This document shows positions 10,353 to 53,916 of a DNA stretch of 64,000 nt, piece by piece (position 1 is the first letter of the stretch; each line of letters opens with the position of its first letter). Source of the DNA: Neorickettsia risticii str. Illinois (GTDB lineage Bacteria > Pseudomonadota > Alphaproteobacteria > Rickettsiales > Anaplasmataceae); contig NC_013009.1 of assembly GCF_000022525.1 (NCBI RefSeq), positions 310,001 through 374,000 of the forward strand, written 5' to 3'. The translations under genes were made by a program, and so were the position numbers. The notes under the pieces are model-generated. The model was not told the DNA's origin. It saw only the letters and a list, made by a program, of their open reading frames with translations, and made no database searches.

Positions 10353-12147
10353 ATGGTTCTCAATAGTTATCCAATTGTTGAACATGAATATGATGTTGTT
10401 GTCGTAGGAGCTGGTGGTTCTGGACTTAGAGCCACTTTGGGTATGGCGAGTCAGGGTTTGAGGGTTGCGTGTCTTTCCAAGGTTTTTCCAACTAGGAGTC
10501 ACACTGTAGCAGCTCAAGGAGGAATTAGTGCTGCATTAGGGAATATCAGTGAAGATGATTGGAGATGGCATGCCTATGATACTGTCAAGGGTTCCGATTG
10601 GCTTGGTGACCAGGATGCAATTGAATACATGTGTAAAAATGCTTCCAGTGCAGTAATAGAATTAGAGAATTTCGGTGTGCCATTTTCACGGACGTCTGAA
10701 GGTAAAATATATCAACGTCCATTTGGTGGTATGACGACCCATTATGGGAAGGGTCGTGCTATTCGAACATGTGCTGCTGAGGATAAAACAGGCCACGCAA
10801 TATTACACGCTCTTTATCAACAGTCTATAAAGCTGGATACGGAATTTTTTGTGGAATATATAGTCCTTGATTTACTCATGGATGATGAGGGTTGTAAGGG
10901 AGTCATTGCTTGGGACCTAAAAGATGGCTCATTACACAGGTTCAGAGCTCATATCGTTGTGATAGCAACTGGTGGCTACGGTCGTATTTACTTTTCAGCC
11001 ACAGGTGCGCATACCTGTACGGGTGATGGAAATGCGTTTGTTCTGAGGGCTGGTTTGCCGCTCCAGGACATGGAATTTGTGCAATTTCACCCAACTGGTA
11101 TTTATGGGGCTGGTTGTTTGATAAGTGAGGCGGTTCGTGGTGAAGGTGGCTATCTGATAAATTCAGAAGGGGAAAAGTTTATGTCTAAGTATGCTCCTTC
11201 TGCGAAAGATCTCGCGTCCAGAGATGTTGTGAGTCGTGCAATCACTATGGAAATCCGTGCTGGTAGGGGTGTGGGTCCAAAGAAAGATCATATCTATCTT
11301 CAAGTTTCACACTTAGGTTCCGAGGTTATAGAACAACGGCTTCCGGGTATAAGCGAAACTGCACGTATCTTTGCAAATGTGGATGTGACGAAAGAGCCTA
11401 TTCCGGTGCTTCCGACTGTCCACTATAACATGGGGGGGATTCCAACAAATTATCATGGAGAAGTCCTTACCATGGATGATGAGAATGTGGAGAAAGTTGT
11501 TCCAGGTTTAATGGCTATAGGCGAAGCTGCTTGTATTTCAGTACATGGCGCGAATAGACTTGGCTCAAATTCTTTATTGGACCTTGTAGTTTTTGGTAGA
11601 ACAGCTGCTATTAGGGCCAGAGAGGTGATAAAAGCCAATACGAAGCACTCTCCTATCGATAAGGAGTTGACAGAGCAGGCTCTGGCGCGCTTTGATAGGT
11701 TCCGTTATGCAGACGGTGGGCTTCCTACAGCTGTGCTAAGAAAAAAAAATGCAGTTGATAATGCAGGAGCACGCTGCCGTTTTTAGGACTCAGGAGGTCC
11801 TAGATGAAGGATGTAAAAAAATGCAGGAGCTCCTCCGTGAAATGGATGAGATCAATGTAACTGACCGTTCACTTATCTGGAATACTGATCTCGTCGAAAC
11901 GCTTGAGCTCGATAATATGGTGGGTCAGGCTATTGCAACAATAGAGTCAGCTGCGAATAGGAAAGAAAGTAGAGGCAGTCATGCTAGGGAGGATTATCCC
12001 GAAAGAGATGATGAAAACTGGCTCCGTCACACGCTGTTTTGGTTCCTACCGGACAGTAATGAGACAAAGTTTGGCTACAGGCCAGTACGTCTGCAGCCAA
12101 TGAGCAATGAAATAGAATCATTTCCTCCTCAAAAGAGGGTCTACTAG
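10353..12147 (+). CDS. sdhA: Succinate dehydrogenase flavoprotein subunit, +1 frameshift in an A9 run
   Basis: SdhA oxidises succinate to fumarate with covalent FAD in complex II. The ATG at 10353 gives the usual start before [13 protein letters not shown]; a TTG at 10302 in frame is less likely. Visible are the FAD-linking His50 in [15 protein letters not shown], the substrate motif HPTGIYGAG, and [10 protein letters not shown] with [18 protein letters not shown]. Frame 1 stops at 11786 after [16 protein letters not shown]. The next frame from about 11749 continues the family sequence exactly ([16 protein letters not shown] to the C-terminal [10 protein letters not shown]). The break is a run of nine A at 11741-11749; eight would give an intact 597-residue protein. 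Unrepaired, the product is about 477 residues and lacks the C-terminal domain. No sdhB, sdhC or sdhD follows. Confidence 0.92.
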
Positions 12148-17569: not shown

Positions 17570-18505
17570 TTAAATTGTTTTTATGTAGGACTGAAGTTTC
17601 ACCTCAAGAGCAGTTGTAGGGATAGTAAATTCCTGTAAAGCGTTTTCATCTGAGATACTGCCGTACTTCAGCATCTTAACTTGCTCGCGTGTTATAATTG
17701 GTGCAGTTTTACCTGAGAGAAACTTATTTATAGGTTTCAGCAAGAAACACTCAAGGAGTGCAGCTTCGCAAAGTGCCATCCAATAGGGAATTGGTAGGCA
17801 TATCACAGTTATGTCAAGAAGCCTGCTGATGAGCGAACAAATTTCACTCAGTGTGTATCTTTTTGATCCGACTACTGGATAGATCCCACCTTTCAATGTT
17901 TCATTCTGCAAAATTTTAGCGACTAGGAAAGCTATGTCGCCAACATAAACTGGTTGTATTGATGCAGTTTTGCAGGCAGGCAGAAGTAAAATACGCAATT
18001 TCCTGCCTAGTTTAACGAAGAGATTTATAAAGTTGTCTTCCTCTCCAAAAACGACTCCCGGTCTAATTATTATGCTTTCTGGGAAAGCTGATCTCACTGC
18101 TTTTTCTCCATTGATCTTGCTCCTACCGTACTTGGTTGCACCTTTACAACCTAGTAGTGCGGAAAAATGAATAAAACGTCGCACGCCATTCTCCGCAGCT
18201 ATTTGTGCAACCTGCGCGCATGCCAAATGATTAATTGCATCAAAAGAAGTGCTGGAAGTTTCCCTTAGAACACCAACCATGTTTATGACAATCTCAGAAT
18301 TTCCGATGCCTTTCACGATATCACCGGGGTCTCTTATGTCACCGTGTACCACCGAGATCTGGCCTAGATTTCCGGAGAGCTTAAGTTTTTTTGCACACGA
18401 AAGCGAATTGGAAACTACGGTAACCTGGTAACCGGACTTTACCAATTCCCTCACTACATAAGAACCGATAAACCCACCGCCGCCAAAAACAGTGATCTTT
18501 TTCAT
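17570..18505 (-). CDS. NDUFA9-like NAD(P)-binding protein (complex I 39-kDa type)
   Basis: Atypical short-chain dehydrogenase/reductase related to NDUFA9, an accessory complex I subunit of mitochondria and alphaproteobacteria. The ATG at 18505 gives 311 residues beginning KKITVFGGGGFIGSYVV, a textbook Rossmann GxxGxxG. HGDIRDP, INMVGVL, FIHFSALLGC and YGRSKINGE (the YxxxK pair) follow, then IIIRPGVVFG. The open frame extends upstream to 18592, but that part has no matching family sequence. A role in complex I assembly is inferred from homology. A general NAD-dependent epimerase is the alternative. Confidence 0.85.
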   Translation of the reverse strand: MKKITVFGGGGFIGSYVVRELVKSGYQVTVVSNSLSCAKKLKLSGNLGQISVVHGDIRDPGDIVKGIGNSEIVINMVGVLRETSSTSFDAINHLACAQVAQIAAENGVRRFIHFSALLGCKGATKYGRSKINGEKAVRSAFPESIIIRPGVVFGEEDNFINLFVKLGRKLRILLLPACKTASIQPVYVGDIAFLVAKILQNETLKGGIYPVVGSKRYTLSEICSLISRLLDITVICLPIPYWMALCEAALLECFLLKPINKFLSGKTAPIITREQVKMLKYGSISDENALQEFTIPTTALEVKLQSYIKTI

Positions 18506-18516
18506 AACCAAATCAA

Positions 18517-18729
18517 TTAAGACCCAAACCACCGTTTTTGATATCTCGAAACTTGAGACCCGTTTGTACAGGTGGAGGCGGCATCCATCCAAGCTACGCC
18601 GAGCATGGACGTTTTAGCCTCCTTCAAGTTCTTCTGTAGCTCAAAGTTTTGATACCTTTCACGCATGGCCCAGGCCAACGCTAGTCTTTCACAGGATAAG
18701 AGGAAAAGCAATACATACCATTCACTCAT
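18517..18729 (-). CDS. Possible small protein upstream of the NDUFA9-like gene
   Basis: A 70-codon ATG frame lies just upstream of the NDUFA9-like gene on the same strand. Its first 18 residues are hydrophobic (WYVLLFLLSCERLALAW) and could anchor in the membrane, followed by a charged helical part (RERYQNFELQKNLKEAK). There is no good ribosome site and I recognise no family. It may be a real small membrane protein or chance. Confidence 0.25.
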   Translation of the reverse strand: MSEWYVLLFLLSCERLALAWAMRERYQNFELQKNLKEAKTSMLGVAWMDAASTCTNGSQVSRYQKRWFGS

Positions 18730-22035: not shown

Positions 22036-22208
22036 GAAGCTGCAATCGCATCTTAAGAAATTGTATTCGACGTTCAGTAATAGTCACTTGTGTAATCAGT
22101 TAATCTACAAGGATAGTTCCTTTACTTGGTCGTACAATACTCGAACTAATTTGAGCCTCATTTCGTATGATGATAGTATTCCACGTGTAAATCAGAGGTA
22201 TTAAGGAG

Positions 22209-23174
22209 ATGCAATCCGGTTCTTTTGTTCGTCTTAGAAGGACGCGTAGAAATAAAATTATCCGAGACTTGATTGCCGAAACCACGCTCTCTGCTTCGCA
22301 GCTTGTATTACCATTGTTTGTCATAAATGGTTCAAATACTGAGTTGCAAGTGGGTGAGATGCCAGGTGTGTGTGCGCATTCTATCGATATACTGAAAAAG
22401 GTAGTAGAGAGTGCAATAACAGTTGGTGTGAGAAGTATCATGCTTTTTCCGCGGGATCCCGGGAAAAGAAGCTTTGAAGCGGAGGAAGCCTATAATCCGG
22501 AGAATTTAATCTGTCGTGCAGTGAGAGCTCTCAAAAGAGATTTCGGAGGTGACCTTGTTATTATTACTGATGTCGCAGCCGATCCTTATACAATTGATGG
22601 TCACGATGGATTTTATAGAGATGGAAAAATTCTTAATGATGAAACATTAGAACTCTTGATAAAGCAAGCCTTAGTGCAGGCCGCAGCTGGGAGCGATATG
22701 CTTGCTCCCTCAGATATGATGGATGGAAGAATTTTTGCAATCAGAAATGCTCTCAATCTTGCTGAATTTGATGAGGTCCCGATTGTATCGTATTCTGCTA
22801 AATATGCTTCCAATTTCTATGCACCTTTCCGAGACGCATTGGGTTCCACGAATATCACGCTGGACAAGCGATCCTATCAAATGGATTACAGGAATGCAAA
22901 CGAAGCCATGCGAGAGATCGAAGTTGATATTAATGAAGGTGCTGACATCGTAATGATCAAACCGGCTAGCCTCTACCTTGACATAATAAGGATGGCAACG
23001 GATCGGTTTCGTGTGCCTATTTTTGCGTATCAAGTTAGTGGCGAGTATAAAATGTTAGTTCAATACGGTGGTCCCGAAGTGTTATTGGAATCCCTAATTG
23101 CAATAAGAAGGGCAGGTGCAACAGGGATAGTAACGTATGCTGCTGTTGAGGTTGCAAAGTACTTAGCGTCTTAG
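22209..23174 (+). CDS. hemB: Delta-aminolevulinic acid dehydratase (porphobilinogen synthase)
   Basis: Condenses two 5-aminolevulinates to porphobilinogen, the first common step of heme synthesis. The 321-residue protein has the Schiff-base lysines in YSAKYAS and MIKPASLYLD. The metal site reads DVAADPYTIDGHDG, with Asp in the positions where zinc-dependent enzymes have Cys, so this is the Mg-type form common in alphaproteobacteria. The AAGGAG sequence abuts the ATG with no spacer, which is atypical; no alternative start in frame looks better. hemC and hemD are elsewhere in the window. Confidence 0.96.
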   Translation: MQSGSFVRLRRTRRNKIIRDLIAETTLSASQLVLPLFVINGSNTELQVGEMPGVCAHSIDILKKVVESAITVGVRSIMLFPRDPGKRSFEAEEAYNPENLICRAVRALKRDFGGDLVIITDVAADPYTIDGHDGFYRDGKILNDETLELLIKQALVQAAAGSDMLAPSDMMDGRIFAIRNALNLAEFDEVPIVSYSAKYASNFYAPFRDALGSTNITLDKRSYQMDYRNANEAMREIEVDINEGADIVMIKPASLYLDIIRMATDRFRVPIFAYQVSGEYKMLVQYGGPEVLLESLIAIRRAGATGIVTYAAVEVAKYLAS

Positions 23175-23372
23175 GTATTTTTTGGTTTATTTAATTGTCT
23201 TTTAAGCCAAAGTAAAAATCGAGCAGACATCATGATAGGTGGCAGCCTTCCTGCTGAGCTGTCTCTTCTTTTGGATTGACACGGCCTCTCTCAGTTAAAA
23301 TCGAAGTGTGAGCGAAAAAGTTATACTGATATGCATGAGGCAGGACTTCTCCAATTGAGATTAAACCCTTTT

Positions 23373-24212
23373 CTATTTCTCACTAATTCGTTTATTTAAA
23401 GCGTTGATCTCCGCTCCGTATATAAAACACAAGTTGAGTAAGTAAAAATACAACATAACCACAATTATTCCTGCGATGCTTCCATAGATTATGTTCATTT
23501 GTGCGAAGGAGTGTAGGTAGAAGGAAAACGCAATCGAAGTGAGAATCCACAGTGACACGACCATTATACTCCCAGGAATGACATCGCAAAACCCTTGTTT
23601 CTCTTTTGGAAAAAAAATATACAAAGCTGATACAAAAAAGAAGACACAGCACGTCGTGATGGTGCTATAGGGTAGCCAACTTGGTCTTTTCAGTGTGTGA
23701 AGGAAAGATACCTTCTTGGTTAAGAGCGGATATATTGTCGGAAAAAGAAGGAAAACAAGTATGATAACGGAAATCAAAAGGAATTGTATGACACTGATAA
23801 GGCGCCTTAGTATGTACTCTGAAACTAGGGCTTCAGTTCCAAAATTATATGCCTTGTTTACTGCTGCTTTTAGTCCCTCTACAATGGATGAGGCCGTCCA
23901 TATTGCGCCAAGAATGGTAAGCGTCAGAAGTCCATGTGTAGGACCCTCAAGGATCTCCTTGATATACGGCATTATGCCTTCGATGATGTTTTCTGGTACG
24001 TTCTCTATGAAGACCGACAGCAATTTTCTTGTTATTTCGTATGAGGAAGCCCCTATTATGTTTGCTATGTGACCTGCTACAGCAGTGAAGAAAAATAAAA
24101 ATGGAAAAATCGATAGAAGCAGCAAAAAAGATAGGTATCCAGCATACTCGGAGCCGCCATGATATAACATGTTGTACAATGAGATTTTTAGTACCGCAAA
24201 AATTCGCTTCAT
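23373..24212 (-). CDS. YihY/virulence factor BrkB family membrane protein
   Basis: Polytopic inner-membrane protein of the YihY/BrkB family, once misnamed ribonuclease BN. The 279-residue protein has about six hydrophobic segments and the family marks GGSEYAGYLSFLLLLSIFPFL near the N-terminus, WTASSIVEGLKAAVNKAYN in the middle, and a C-terminal YGSIAGIIVVMLYFYLLNLCFIYGAEIN. The family function is not settled. A T8 run (minus strand) at the IFFPK codons is in frame. It diverges from atpB. Confidence 0.9.
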   Translation of the reverse strand: MKRIFAVLKISLYNMLYHGGSEYAGYLSFLLLLSIFPFLFFFTAVAGHIANIIGASSYEITRKLLSVFIENVPENIIEGIMPYIKEILEGPTHGLLTLTILGAIWTASSIVEGLKAAVNKAYNFGTEALVSEYILRRLISVIQFLLISVIILVFLLFPTIYPLLTKKVSFLHTLKRPSWLPYSTITTCCVFFFVSALYIFFPKEKQGFCDVIPGSIMVVSLWILTSIAFSFYLHSFAQMNIIYGSIAGIIVVMLYFYLLNLCFIYGAEINALNKRISEK

Positions 24213-24296: not shown

Positions 24297-24321
24297 CCGG
24301 TTGTAAGAGCTGCCCTACTAT

Positions 24322-25053
24322 ATGAGTCCTTTAAAACAGTTTGAGGTTTTTCCTCTAATTCGTCTCCCAGAATTTTTCGGCTGGGATATCAGTTTTACTA
24401 ACTCCTCGTTGTATATGGTGCTTACAGTTGTATTCGCCTCCCTTTTCCTTTTTGCTGGTGTTTTCAGAGGTAAGGTGATACCAGGGCCAATGCAGTCTTT
24501 TGTTGAGGTAGTATGCGGTTTTGTATTGGAAATCATTAAGGGTAGTTGCGGAAAGGCCGGTGTAGACTATTTCCCTTTAATTCTATCAGTATTCTTATAC
24601 GTGCTGTTTGCAAACCTTGTTGGAATGTTACCACTTCCTATGAGCTTCACAGTGACAAGCCATATAGTTGTGACACTTGCACTTGCAATGGTCGTCTTCA
24701 TTTTTGTGACCCTCATTGGATTGAAAAAGCAAGGCATGGGTTTCTTTGCCATGTTTCTTCCTGATGGAACGCCTAATTGGATCGCTCCACTGATGGTATT
24801 TCTTGAGGTGTGTACCTATCTCTTTAGGCCAATTAGTCTTGCTATTCGGCTGACTGCGAATATGATCGCTGGTCACACAATACTTAAGGTCATTGCTGGG
24901 TTTGTATATCCAGTCTCTTTGTTGATAAGCCCTTTATCTTTTTTGTTTGTGGTGGTACTAATAGTGTTCGAGGTGTTCATAGCTATGTTGCAGGCATACA
25001 TTTTTGTCATGTTGACCTGCGTCTATTTGAATGATTCACTGGTGAAACACTAA
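24322..25053 (+). CDS. atpB: ATP synthase F0 subunit a
   Basis: Membrane subunit that forms the proton half-channels against the c ring. The 243-residue protein has five to six TM helices and the conserved arginine in PISLAIRLTANMIAGH. The N-terminal KQFEVFPLI is the usual alphaproteobacterial leader. It heads the F0 cluster atpB-atpE-atpF'-atpF; F1 genes are not in the window, as is typical of alphaproteobacteria. Confidence 0.97.
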   Translation: MSPLKQFEVFPLIRLPEFFGWDISFTNSSLYMVLTVVFASLFLFAGVFRGKVIPGPMQSFVEVVCGFVLEIIKGSCGKAGVDYFPLILSVFLYVLFANLVGMLPLPMSFTVTSHIVVTLALAMVVFIFVTLIGLKKQGMGFFAMFLPDGTPNWIAPLMVFLEVCTYLFRPISLAIRLTANMIAGHTILKVIAGFVYPVSLLISPLSFLFVVVLIVFEVFIAMLQAYIFVMLTCVYLNDSLVKH

Positions 25054-25075
25054 CGTGGTTATTTTATAAGGGTAT

Positions 25076-25303
25076 ATGGAGTTAGAAGGTCTAAAATTTT
25101 TGGGAATTGGTCTCTCTGTTGTTGGTATGTTGGGAGCTGCTATAGGAGTGAGTAACATATTCTCCATGATGCTTAATGGCATCGCTAGAAACCCTGAGTC
25201 CGAAGAAAAATTGAAGAAGTACGTCTATGCGGGTGCTGCTTTGACGGAAGCGATGGGGCTTTTCTCATTCGTTTTGGCGTTGCTACTGATTTTTGTTGCG
25301 TAG
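25076..25303 (+). CDS. atpE: ATP synthase F0 subunit c
   Basis: Proteolipid of the rotor ring. The 75-residue hairpin has two TM helices, the polar loop [15 protein letters not shown], and the proton-carrying Glu in [17 protein letters not shown]. It lies 22 bases after atpB, and its stop is immediately followed by the atpF' start. Confidence 0.97.
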
Positions 25304-43157: not shown

Positions 43158-43689
43158 CTACGGTACCCGAAAACAGAAATACTATTACCGATGTGTGCAA
43201 ATTGCAAATTCACGCTCCGTTAGGTGCGCATAATCGTAATCTTGCATTATCTAATCACCTTAGTGCTTTACTTATTTGGGCCAACTCTAACAATGTAATA
43301 AAACCTCCGGCTTAATAGTGCGGTTCTTTTTCACATTTTGATTGAAAGGGTGCATCTTTTATACAAGTCTCATCTTCTTTCGAGTACATTTTCACGTTTG
43401 TACGGAAGTACATATCTGGATTTGGTGTGCAAAAACGGATACACAGCTCTTAGCACGTTTTTAACACAACATACTGTATGTGCATATCTTAGCTTTTGGA
43501 TTGGTCAGACATGTTTGTTTTGTCTGTGAAGCGAAGTTGTTTAGCTTTTGGTAGAATGGGGTTTTTTCTAGAACGTAGCGGAATTCTTGTAGTGGAAGAT
43601 ACATTCTACTTCGGTATACAGAACGCTTTCTTTATTCCAAGGAAATGTCTTGTGTGCTATAAGTTTGTGTGATCTATGTGCATCGTGTT
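43158..43689. other. Intergenic region between divergent secF and maeB
   Basis: This spacer of about 530 bases is the longest gene-free stretch in the window. A 63-codon frame at 43338-43529 lacks a ribosome site and family resemblance. I see no structured RNA, repeat or strong promoter. Confidence 0.5.
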
Positions 43690-45946
43690 ATGGAAGAGGA
43701 AAGGGACGATCTTGGTATACAAGCGTTGCGGTATCACTCTAAGGGTAGACCTGGTAAATTGGGGGTTCATGCCACAAAGCCTCTTCTTACGCAGGAAGAT
43801 TTATCACTTGCCTACTCGCCTGGTGTAGCACATCCATGTTTGGAGATAAAGAAAAACCCTCTAGATGCATATAAGTATACCTCTAAGGGTAATTTAGTTG
43901 CAGTTATTTCAAATGGGACTGCTGTTCTCGGTTTAGGAAACCTTGGAGCAATGGCTTCTAAACCTGTGATGGAAGGAAAGGCTGTGCTATTCAAAAAGTT
44001 TGCTGATATAGACTCAATTGACATTGAGGTCGACACTCAGAGTATAGAGGAATTTATCCTCACAGTGAAGAACATAGCTTCTACTTTTGGTGGTATCAAT
44101 CTTGAAGATATTAAGTCACCAGAGTGTTTTGAAATAGAGGAACGTCTAGCAGCAATGCTGGATATTCCAGTCTTTCACGATGATCAGCACGGCACCGCAA
44201 TTATCGTATGTGCGGGTCTTATAAATGCTGCTGACGTTACTAAGAGAGAGGTAGAGGAACTTAAGGTAATCGTGAACGGTTGTGGTGCAGCAGGCATAGC
44301 ATGCATCGAGTTAATGAAGGAGATCGGAATCAGTGATATAGTGGTCTGTGATCAAAGTGGTGTTATTAAAAAAGATAGAGATTTTCATGACGGTGACCGA
44401 AAAGCTCTTTATGCCGTTGATGTAAGTGCAAACACGCTTGAGGAGGCACTGGTCGGCGCTGATGTCTTCATTGGTTTATCTGCTGCAGACGTCCTAAAGC
44501 CGGAGTGGTTAACTGGAATGAATAAGGATCCGATAATTTTTGCTTTGGCTAATCCGGATCCTGAGATAAAGCCAGAGTTAGCAAAGAAGGCACGTCCGGA
44601 TGCAATAATAGCAACTGGCAGATCGGATTATGATAATCAAATTAATAACGTTATGTGCTTTCCATACCTGTTTAGGGGAGCACTTGATGTTGGTGCGAGT
44701 AAATTCAATAGTGAAATGAAGCTTGCTGCTGTGCATGCAATTGCTGCAATAGCAAAAAAGCCAATCTCGATGGAAGTAATGGATGCCTATGGGGATTCTC
44801 ATATGCAATATAGTAAGGAGTATATACTCCCAAAGCCTTTTGACAAGCGTCTTATTGCCGAAATCGCTCCAGCAGTTGCGCGTGCAGCAGTTGAGACAGG
44901 TGTTGCAAAGAAGCCAATTTATGATTTTGATGCGTACAAGGATGATTTAGTCAGACGGTTGGCTTCGGGTTCAACGACCCTATTCGGGATGGTGAGCAGT
45001 GTGCTCAGGGATAATGGGAAACGCATCATTTTTGCAGAAGGTGAGGAGCTTAAGAGTATTCGAGCTGCGCTTCAGTGGCGTGACATGGGGTACGGTACTC
45101 CCATTCTTGTTGGGAGAAACAGTGTTATAGAGGCAAAAATGGATGAAATGAATCTTCGTAATCGTGAAGGTTTTGAAGTAACAAATACGGCTGTTTCACA
45201 GAGAAGTGGCGAGTACATAGAGTACATGTACGGTACCTTGAAAAGAAAAGGATTTCCTTATGAAAGATGTGTCAGGGATGTTGAAACGAATAATGACGTG
45301 TTTGCAGCTTGCATGCTTGCACTGAACGATGGAGATGCGGTGATCACTGGCCTAACATGGAGTAACGCAGAGGATCGTCTTAAGAGTATTGTGCCAATCG
45401 TCGGTACTGCAGGTGTTGTTTTTGAAATGTCGATTATTGTTGCTGATACAGGCACTTTTTTTTATTTGCAATACTGGCATTAACGATACGCTAGATGCAG
45501 GCGATATTGCTGAAGTAGCAATAAAAGCTGCTGAAGTAGTCAAAAGTATGGGATGCGTTCCAAGAGTTGCTGTGATAGCAAATTCGAATTTTGGGAGTGT
45601 AAATAGTCCTAGTGCACTGATGGCACGTGAAGCAATTGAGATATTAGATGATTTTGGTGTTTCGTTTGAATACGAGGGCGAGATGGATCTTGATATTGCT
45701 TTAAACGAAAAATCTAAAAGGCTTTATCCTTTTTCTAGGCTTACGGATCGTGCGAATGTGCTTATTATTCAAAACGTAGAAATTGTCGATGCAGTGCGTA
45801 AGTTCTCCAGTGAGGTTATGGGAACAACTGTTATTGGACCTCTGTTGTTTGGATTAAAGAGATCCGTGCAGATAGTGCGGCCGTCGTACGGTGCTACGGA
45901 TATCCTAAATCTTGCTCTAATTGCTGCAAAGACAGGCTCTCTATAA
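43690..45946 (+). CDS. maeB: NADP-malic enzyme with phosphotransacetylase-like domain, +1 frameshift in a T8 run
   Basis: Converts malate to pyruvate with reduction of NAD(P). The N-terminal malic domain has [12 protein letters not shown], the metal site FHDDQHGTA, and the Rossmann motif NGCGAAGIA. The C-terminal half is the phosphotransacetylase-like domain of MaeB proteins, usually regulatory. Frame 1 stops at 45483 after [13 protein letters not shown]. The next frame continues the family sequence ([19 protein letters not shown] through [12 protein letters not shown]) to 45946. The cause is eight T at 45456-45463; seven would restore about 751 residues. Without correction the product is about 597 residues and loses half of the second domain, but the catalytic domain stays whole. 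The start could also be GTG at 43669 or 43678. Confidence 0.92.
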
Positions 45947-53359: not shown

Positions 53360-53523
53360 CCTTAAGAAGCGAGAAGCATAAAACAGATGATATTGATCGT
53401 ATACCTATTCCTCCATTAAAGCAAGAGGGCTAAATCTTAGCTACAGCGAGCGTAGAGCGAATGTACACTCACCACGGCCACACTGTAAAGTCGTTATCTA
53501 GCTCTATTTATGTGCTCACAAAG

Positions 53524-53916
53524 ATGTTAGAATCCCCGATTGTTGAAATAGGAAAGTGGGTAATGGAAGGCTATATCTTCATCGGCCTCTTTTTTGTTGT
53601 AGCGTGCTTCATTAGCTGCGTGATGCTTATCTTGCCGGTTTTTATTGCGCCTTCTTCACATGAGAGGCATAAGGGTGATAGCTACGAGTGCGGCTTTGAC
53701 AAATTAAGCTCTACTGGTGAAAGATTTAATGTTCGATTTTATTTGGTGGGAATACTGTTTATTGTCTTTGATCTGGAGATAATTTTTCTTTTCCCATGGG
53801 CCGTAAGTGCTAGAGAGCTTGGTCCTGCAGCTTTTGTTTCGGTATTAATCTTTCTCGTTATTTTGACTGTCGGATTTGTGTATGAATTTGTTTCTGGTGC
53901 ACTAGATTGGAGGTAG
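53524..53916 (+). CDS. nuoA: NADH-quinone oxidoreductase subunit A
   Basis: Membrane subunit of complex I with three TM helices. The ATG at 53524 gives about 130 residues; a longer frame from 53461 would add 21 residues not seen in the family. Marks are HERHKGDSYECGFD, RFNVRFYLVGILFIVFDLEIIFLFPW and the third TM segment. nuoB follows after a 180-base gap. Confidence 0.93.
   Translation: MLESPIVEIGKWVMEGYIFIGLFFVVACFISCVMLILPVFIAPSSHERHKGDSYECGFDKLSSTGERFNVRFYLVGILFIVFDLEIIFLFPWAVSARELGPAAFVSVLIFLVILTVGFVYEFVSGALDWR

Follow-up and report, generated by a model that had tools for sequence, protein, structure and literature searches.

The deposited sdhA of Neorickettsia risticii is split at a run of nine A, one of a set of gene breaks at A/T runs that two sister genomes lack

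Homopolymer-length errors are a known kind of fault in genome consensus sequences. Frames broken at poly-A or poly-T tracts have also been described as features of living genomes. In the passages cited here, Baranov et al. (2005) describe "pseudo pseudogenes" in which a run steps from eight to nine A (PMC1088944), eight genes of this kind are reported from Blochmannia vafer (PMC3017870), and PMC5009743 cites corrected transcripts at levels of 12-50% in symbionts of aphids and ants. According to a further excerpt, seven or more consecutive T, or a larger number of A, suffice for slippage in E. coli, and a mutant with a one-base-longer T8 run gave some full-length product (PMC6260861). Deletions in Buchnera also increase with run length in the cited part of another study (PMC5574713). 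How does the broken sdhA of Neorickettsia risticii compare with these systems? N. risticii is a horse-disease bacterium, and sdhA encodes a central energy enzyme.

We analyzed a window of 64,000 nucleotides (bases 310001-374000 of the single 879,977-base contig of N. risticii Illinois; coordinates of the window are used in Table 1 and for sdhA). An initial annotation, made from the letters of the window, had placed a split of sdhA at a run of nine A, and the run is indeed present in the deposited gene (10353-12147, plus strand), where the frame is lost. Past the run, the 5' frame, which as computed starts at TTG 10302 upstream of the ATG, reads out-of-frame residues until it meets the stop TAG at 11784-11786. 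Instead of a single continuous frame with the FAD-binding and C-terminal domains, we found two ORFs with one domain each: Pfam FAD_binding_2 in the 5' ORF (profile positions 1-414 of 414) and Succ_DH_flav_C in the 3' ORF (4-130 of 130). The 3' ORF aligns with solved SDH flavoproteins, several of them up to the last residue. The length of about 600 residues that had been expected for SdhA agrees with our figure (~597), whereas the break comes after residue ~463, not near residue 470. The remark that the downstream part shows no decay was also borne out: it is open, carries the C-terminal domain, and has acquired 1 nonsynonymous and 6 synonymous changes on the N. risticii branch, which are small numbers.

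Table 1. Features of the two broken genes of the window
Feature	Coordinates	Strand	Description
sdhA 5' ORF	10353..11786	+	477 aa from ATG 10353; FAD-binding domain
sdhA A9 run	11741..11749	+	Point of frame loss; shorter uninterrupted runs and open frames in three congeners
sdhA 3' ORF	11749..12147	+	132 aa from ATG 11749; Succ_DH_flav_C domain
Malic enzyme-phosphotransacetylase fusion gene, 5' ORF	43669..45483	+	Second broken gene of the window
T8 run of malic enzyme-phosphotransacetylase gene	45456..45463	+	Point of frame loss; stretch one base shorter in both sisters
Malic enzyme-phosphotransacetylase gene, 3' part	45458..45946	+	Rest of PTA_PTB domain, in a different frame

The intact N. 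sennetsu copy scores 944 bits with TIGR01816 (sdhA_forward), above the cut-off of 727, and matches to SdhB and two matches to Sdh_cyt (membrane subunits) lie in open frames in the N. risticii genome. A second full copy of sdhA was not found, the sole other match, at 604340, being weak and partial. The A9 run (11741-11760) and an A7 run ~70 bases downstream (11815-11830) are each followed by ATGCAG or TGCAG, a resemblance that is probably due to chance. Succinate dehydrogenase is mentioned for flukes in a cited passage of PMC5257007.

The sdhA locus was found in 4 of 4 Neorickettsia genomes. Stop-to-stop frames measure 620, 620, and 612 codons in the other three and 525 in N. risticii; because every genome holds the locus and these three frames are open, the break cannot be put down to chance. 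At the position of the run, N. sennetsu is interrupted by a G, Fin17 has A8, and N. helminthoeca has A7 after GG. All three congener copies are open. sdhA matches were obtained in 64 of 67 genomes of the family; full-length matches elsewhere span 595-632 codons, none falling below 595, and one draft genome has a second, partial match of 161 codons. N. helminthoeca was compared for sdhA only, and the other breaks were judged against N. sennetsu and Fin17 (hereafter, the sisters).

Is sdhA the only gene affected? Sister ORFs were compared with the 64-kb window, with 100 kb chosen blind to runs, and with ~134 kb picked for long A/T runs in N. risticii. Besides sdhA, the window contains a broken malic enzyme-phosphotransacetylase gene, whose protein measures 757 aa when the gene is taken whole. 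The run-picked stretches yielded breaks at A/T runs of at least nine in lipB, in a UvrD/PcrA-type helicase gene, in a predicted 3'-5' exonuclease gene (PF10108), in hscB, and, near the start of the gene, in the phosphatidylserine decarboxylase gene (psd) and in a gene for a VirB10-type secretion-channel component, all of them unbroken in both sisters. The breaks occur at A/T runs eight to ten bases in length, and each site has one base more than its counterparts in the two sisters, where some of the runs are also interrupted by substitutions. The initial annotation was therefore right in part. The break, the lack of decay, and the three options that it offered (a recent insertion, an artefact, or slippage) stand, but it had missed that other A/T runs of this genome carry such breaks too and that sdhA belongs to a genome-specific group.

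Not every difference was counted as a break. The polyprenyl synthetase gene has an altered end in N. risticii; at 215005 and 500600 only gene ends are altered, and these loci were left out of the interior breaks. The locus at 761988 is doubtful (not conserved in Fin17) yet was retained in the counts of interior coding runs. Two-frame rows near gene starts (299771-301265, 750774-752040, 24315-25131, and 132856-134305) and sister-target rows, unfollowed or at start-codon edges, were set aside. Four candidates were dropped: an antisense ORF (22100-22441), two joints of concatenated sequence (17570-18592 and 53461-53916), and a stretch near 752300-752500 that on reading resembles a tRNA and leader rather than a gene break. 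Two-frame genes also occur outside the set. At N. risticii 421155-426918, a 1921-aa N. sennetsu ORF lies in two frames in both N. risticii and Fin17, and at 668129-669182 a 352-aa Fin17 ORF lies in two frames in both N. risticii and N. sennetsu. At N. sennetsu 23355-23799, the run at 23652 exceeds those of both other genomes by one base, within a stretch that N. risticii reads as a single open frame of 149 aa; this is possibly the same kind of event as the N. risticii breaks.

As a control for stretches picked by N. risticii runs, we took a census of every A/T run of at least nine that has a locus in each genome; four Fin17 pattern matches without a locus fall outside it. The genomes have similar numbers of such runs (26 in N. 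risticii, 28 in N. sennetsu, and 28 examined in Fin17), of which 6, 12, and 7, respectively, were not comparable with both others. Of the 20 N. risticii runs aligning to both others, 8 exceed both counterparts by one base; the same holds for 0 of 16 N. sennetsu runs and 0 of 21 Fin17 runs (8/20 versus 0/37, Fisher P = 8e-5). Seven of the eight lengthened runs break a gene interior, and one changes a gene end. Fin17 also has one run three bases longer than in both others. Runs comparable with a single partner include one longer by 1 in N. risticii and four longer by 1, 2, 2, and 5 in N. sennetsu, all outside long ORFs, and one longer by 4 in Fin17, where a 443-codon frame begins. A census based on ORFs gave 7 of 20 in N. 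risticii and 0 of 20 in each sister after three hand corrections: lipB and the exonuclease gene had been miscalled in frame by alignments that ran past the run, and 215005 had been miscalled broken from an antisense ORF. It was because such an alignment fault could mask breaks in the sisters that the census was repeated by nucleotide length.

One-base changes rise steeply with run length. In interior coding A/T runs of N. risticii, a sample that includes the run-picked stretches, they number 0 of 312 where the sisters' length is six, 2 of 103 where it is seven (one doubtful), and 6 of 39 where it is eight to nine. Over all interior coding runs the totals are 8 of 455 in N. risticii (one doubtful), 2 of 445 in N. 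sennetsu (one doubtful), and 2 of 465 in Fin17, with one more in Fin17 arising from a run of five. Coding runs of at least six on whose length the sisters agree are one base longer at 11 places and one base shorter at 0 in N. risticii (sdhA included; the sample is partly run-picked). One further coding run is shorter by three, in frame. Noncoding runs changed by one base both ways (2 longer, 4 shorter), and G/C runs of 5 to 7, which are short, showed a one-base change in 0 of 82 in N. risticii.

We then asked about selection. On the N. risticii branch, the nine broken genes, among which the doubtful 761988 is counted, have a nonsynonymous-to-synonymous ratio of 57:149, and the 192 other genes one of 1158:3145 (Fisher P = 0.81). 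The nine contain no stop codons, compared to 12 stops in 10 of the 192 others. Changes per codon are not in excess, at 0.059 in the broken genes and 0.067 in the others. The ratio for sdhA is 3:18, with no stop, and the parts downstream of the breaks give 24:81 when the broken genes are combined. Two genes give no sign of constraint, namely hscB (8:2) and the 761988 ORF, which is the doubtful one (13:2); the other seven combined give 36:145. Taken together, the broken genes show no relaxed selection, although hscB alone does not show constraint. Because the set keeps purifying selection and is free of stops, old pseudogenes are ruled out; the breaks are therefore recent, rescued, or not real.

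One potential explanation, which we tentatively prefer, is that the extra A in sdhA and the extra bases in seven other conserved genes would be run-length errors in the deposited N. risticii consensus. This reading takes first place for three reasons: only one assembly shows the breaks, they hit functions that are unlikely to have been lost together, and they increase steeply with run length. The census contrast (8/20 versus 0/37) counts in its favor, as do the lack of a second full sdhA copy, the open frames of the SdhB and Sdh_cyt matches, the ratios of nonsynonymous to synonymous changes, and the open frames of the MutS and MutL matches. If so, sdhA would be whole in the cell, and SdhA would be an unremarkable flavoprotein of complex II with ~597 residues. 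A whole sdhA in the cell is in our judgment the most likely state. Against a consensus error, all 11 of the coding-run changes given above lengthen the run, though in a sample partly picked for long runs, and miscalling would be expected to err in both directions. The two-way changes in noncoding runs and the absence of change in G/C runs, which are short, stand on the same side. Published pseudogene counts, as given in the cited portions of PMC5481527 and PMC7042704, bear on both sides: 11 or 15 in N. risticii versus 2 in N. sennetsu count for an error, and the 17 in Fin17 and 14 or 16 in N. helminthoeca, which are as many, count against it.

The insertions may instead be real and fixed, with the RNA polymerase slipping at the lengthened runs and thereby yielding some in-frame mRNA and hence full-length SdhA and the other proteins, as in pseudo pseudogenes. 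We regard this, the strongest of the rival readings, as possible but rather unlikely. The selection data fit it, both in the nine broken genes together and downstream of the breaks, as do the uniform lengthening of coding runs, which favors slippage, and the precedents from Baranov et al., Blochmannia, the aphid and ant symbionts, E. coli, and Buchnera given at the outset. In sdhA itself, the frame is lost within an A/T run of at least nine, the restored frame is conserved, and purifying selection is kept downstream of the break, on the small numbers given above. The malic enzyme gene breaks at T8, which is no argument against rescue because slippage at seven or more T is reported for E. coli in the cited part of PMC6260861. 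The sisters, however, have as many long runs as N. risticii, yet no such event was seen among those compared with both others. The direction of slippage is a further difficulty. Slippage in runs is mainly +1 in the cited parts of PMC5574713 and PMC6260861; in E. coli transcripts overall, deletions outnumber insertions, though rarely in runs (PMC5574713). By direct reading, an sdhA transcript with one extra A enters the third frame and reads AAA TGC AGT TGA, a stop, and the full-length frame is restored only by a net change of -1 or +2. Two related mechanisms were rejected. Programmed (conserved) slippage would need a conserved run and frame offset, whereas 3 of 3 congeners are in frame, and a ribosomal -1 shift at A AAA AAA would by reading also lead into AAA TGC AGT TGA and stop.

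It is less likely that we see genuine insertions of very recent origin, or a mixture within the population of a cultured isolate, the genes then being in the course of loss or close to reverting. In E. coli, UvrD takes part in mismatch repair, and the broken UvrD-type helicase might raise run-length mutation. The genome-specific burst of lengthened runs, the presence of this gene among the broken ones, the dependence of the changes on run length, and the 8:2 ratio of hscB would all be consistent with recent loss. Survival after the joint loss of lipB, psd, hscB, and sdhA would be hard to explain, and the branch lacks any excess of changes. The MutS and MutL matches of N. risticii lie in open frames of 819 and 672 codons, which argues against this reading and led us to reject loss of either as the cause of the breaks. 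As a separate observation, MutS_V is split over frames of 260 and 78 codons in N. helminthoeca (C1:277045-277595), and PF01119 (MutL-type) has no match in that genome, unlike in its three congeners. Just as doubtful is the wider picture of an obligate intracellular pathogen of 41% GC that would live by slippage decoding. Real insertions would then be present simultaneously in at least eight of its core genes, among them genes for TCA cycle, lipoate, phospholipid, and Fe-S assembly functions and for a DNA helicase, with its two sisters showing none and the broken helicase perhaps having raised the mutation rate. That SdhA works as two chains is highly improbable: the split does coincide with the boundary between the Pfam domains, and an ATG opens the 3' ORF, but this ATG is an ordinary methionine codon in the intact congener copies, no GGAG-like site stands in the bases just upstream of it, the split is absent from all three congeners, and the other broken genes would be left unexplained.

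The breaks in N. risticii, with whole copies in the sisters, point to a sequence-reading error or slippery decoding and not to an old loss of the enzyme. If the preferred reading of a consensus error is correct, at least eight conserved genes appear broken in the N. risticii reference without being so, and both the metabolic reconstructions and the counts of pseudogenes based on it need correcting. If the insertions are real, the genome would be a clear test case for the number of core genes run through slippage outside very AT-rich insect symbionts.

These breaks resemble each of the known systems in part. Like consensus homopolymer errors, they are found in one assembly and only at long runs, are steep with length, and leave selection unaffected; unlike such errors, the one-base coding changes all go in one direction. 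With the pseudo pseudogenes in the cited passages of Baranov et al. (PMC1088944), sdhA shares the change from A8 to A9 by one base in an otherwise intact gene, after which the conserved frame follows, whereas slippage in N. risticii is putative, a set of core genes is affected in one genome, and the malic enzyme gene breaks at a run of eight. The poly-A/T frameshifts of Blochmannia and Buchnera, as presented in the cited parts of PMC3017870 and PMC5009743, are likewise single indels per gene, without decay, in core functions of an obligate intracellular bacterium. Those genomes, however, are extremely AT-biased, with over 100 genic tracts of at least nine in Blochmannia, and some of their frameshifts are common to several species, whereas the N. 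risticii breaks are not shared with the two sisters. The N. risticii genome has a GC content of ~41%, so the AT-rich endosymbiont setting in which the initial annotation had placed sdhA does not apply. Both an artefact and slippage are thus explanations of known kinds; what is new here is a set of breaks, scattered across the genome and absent from two sisters, of which the one in sdhA is a member.
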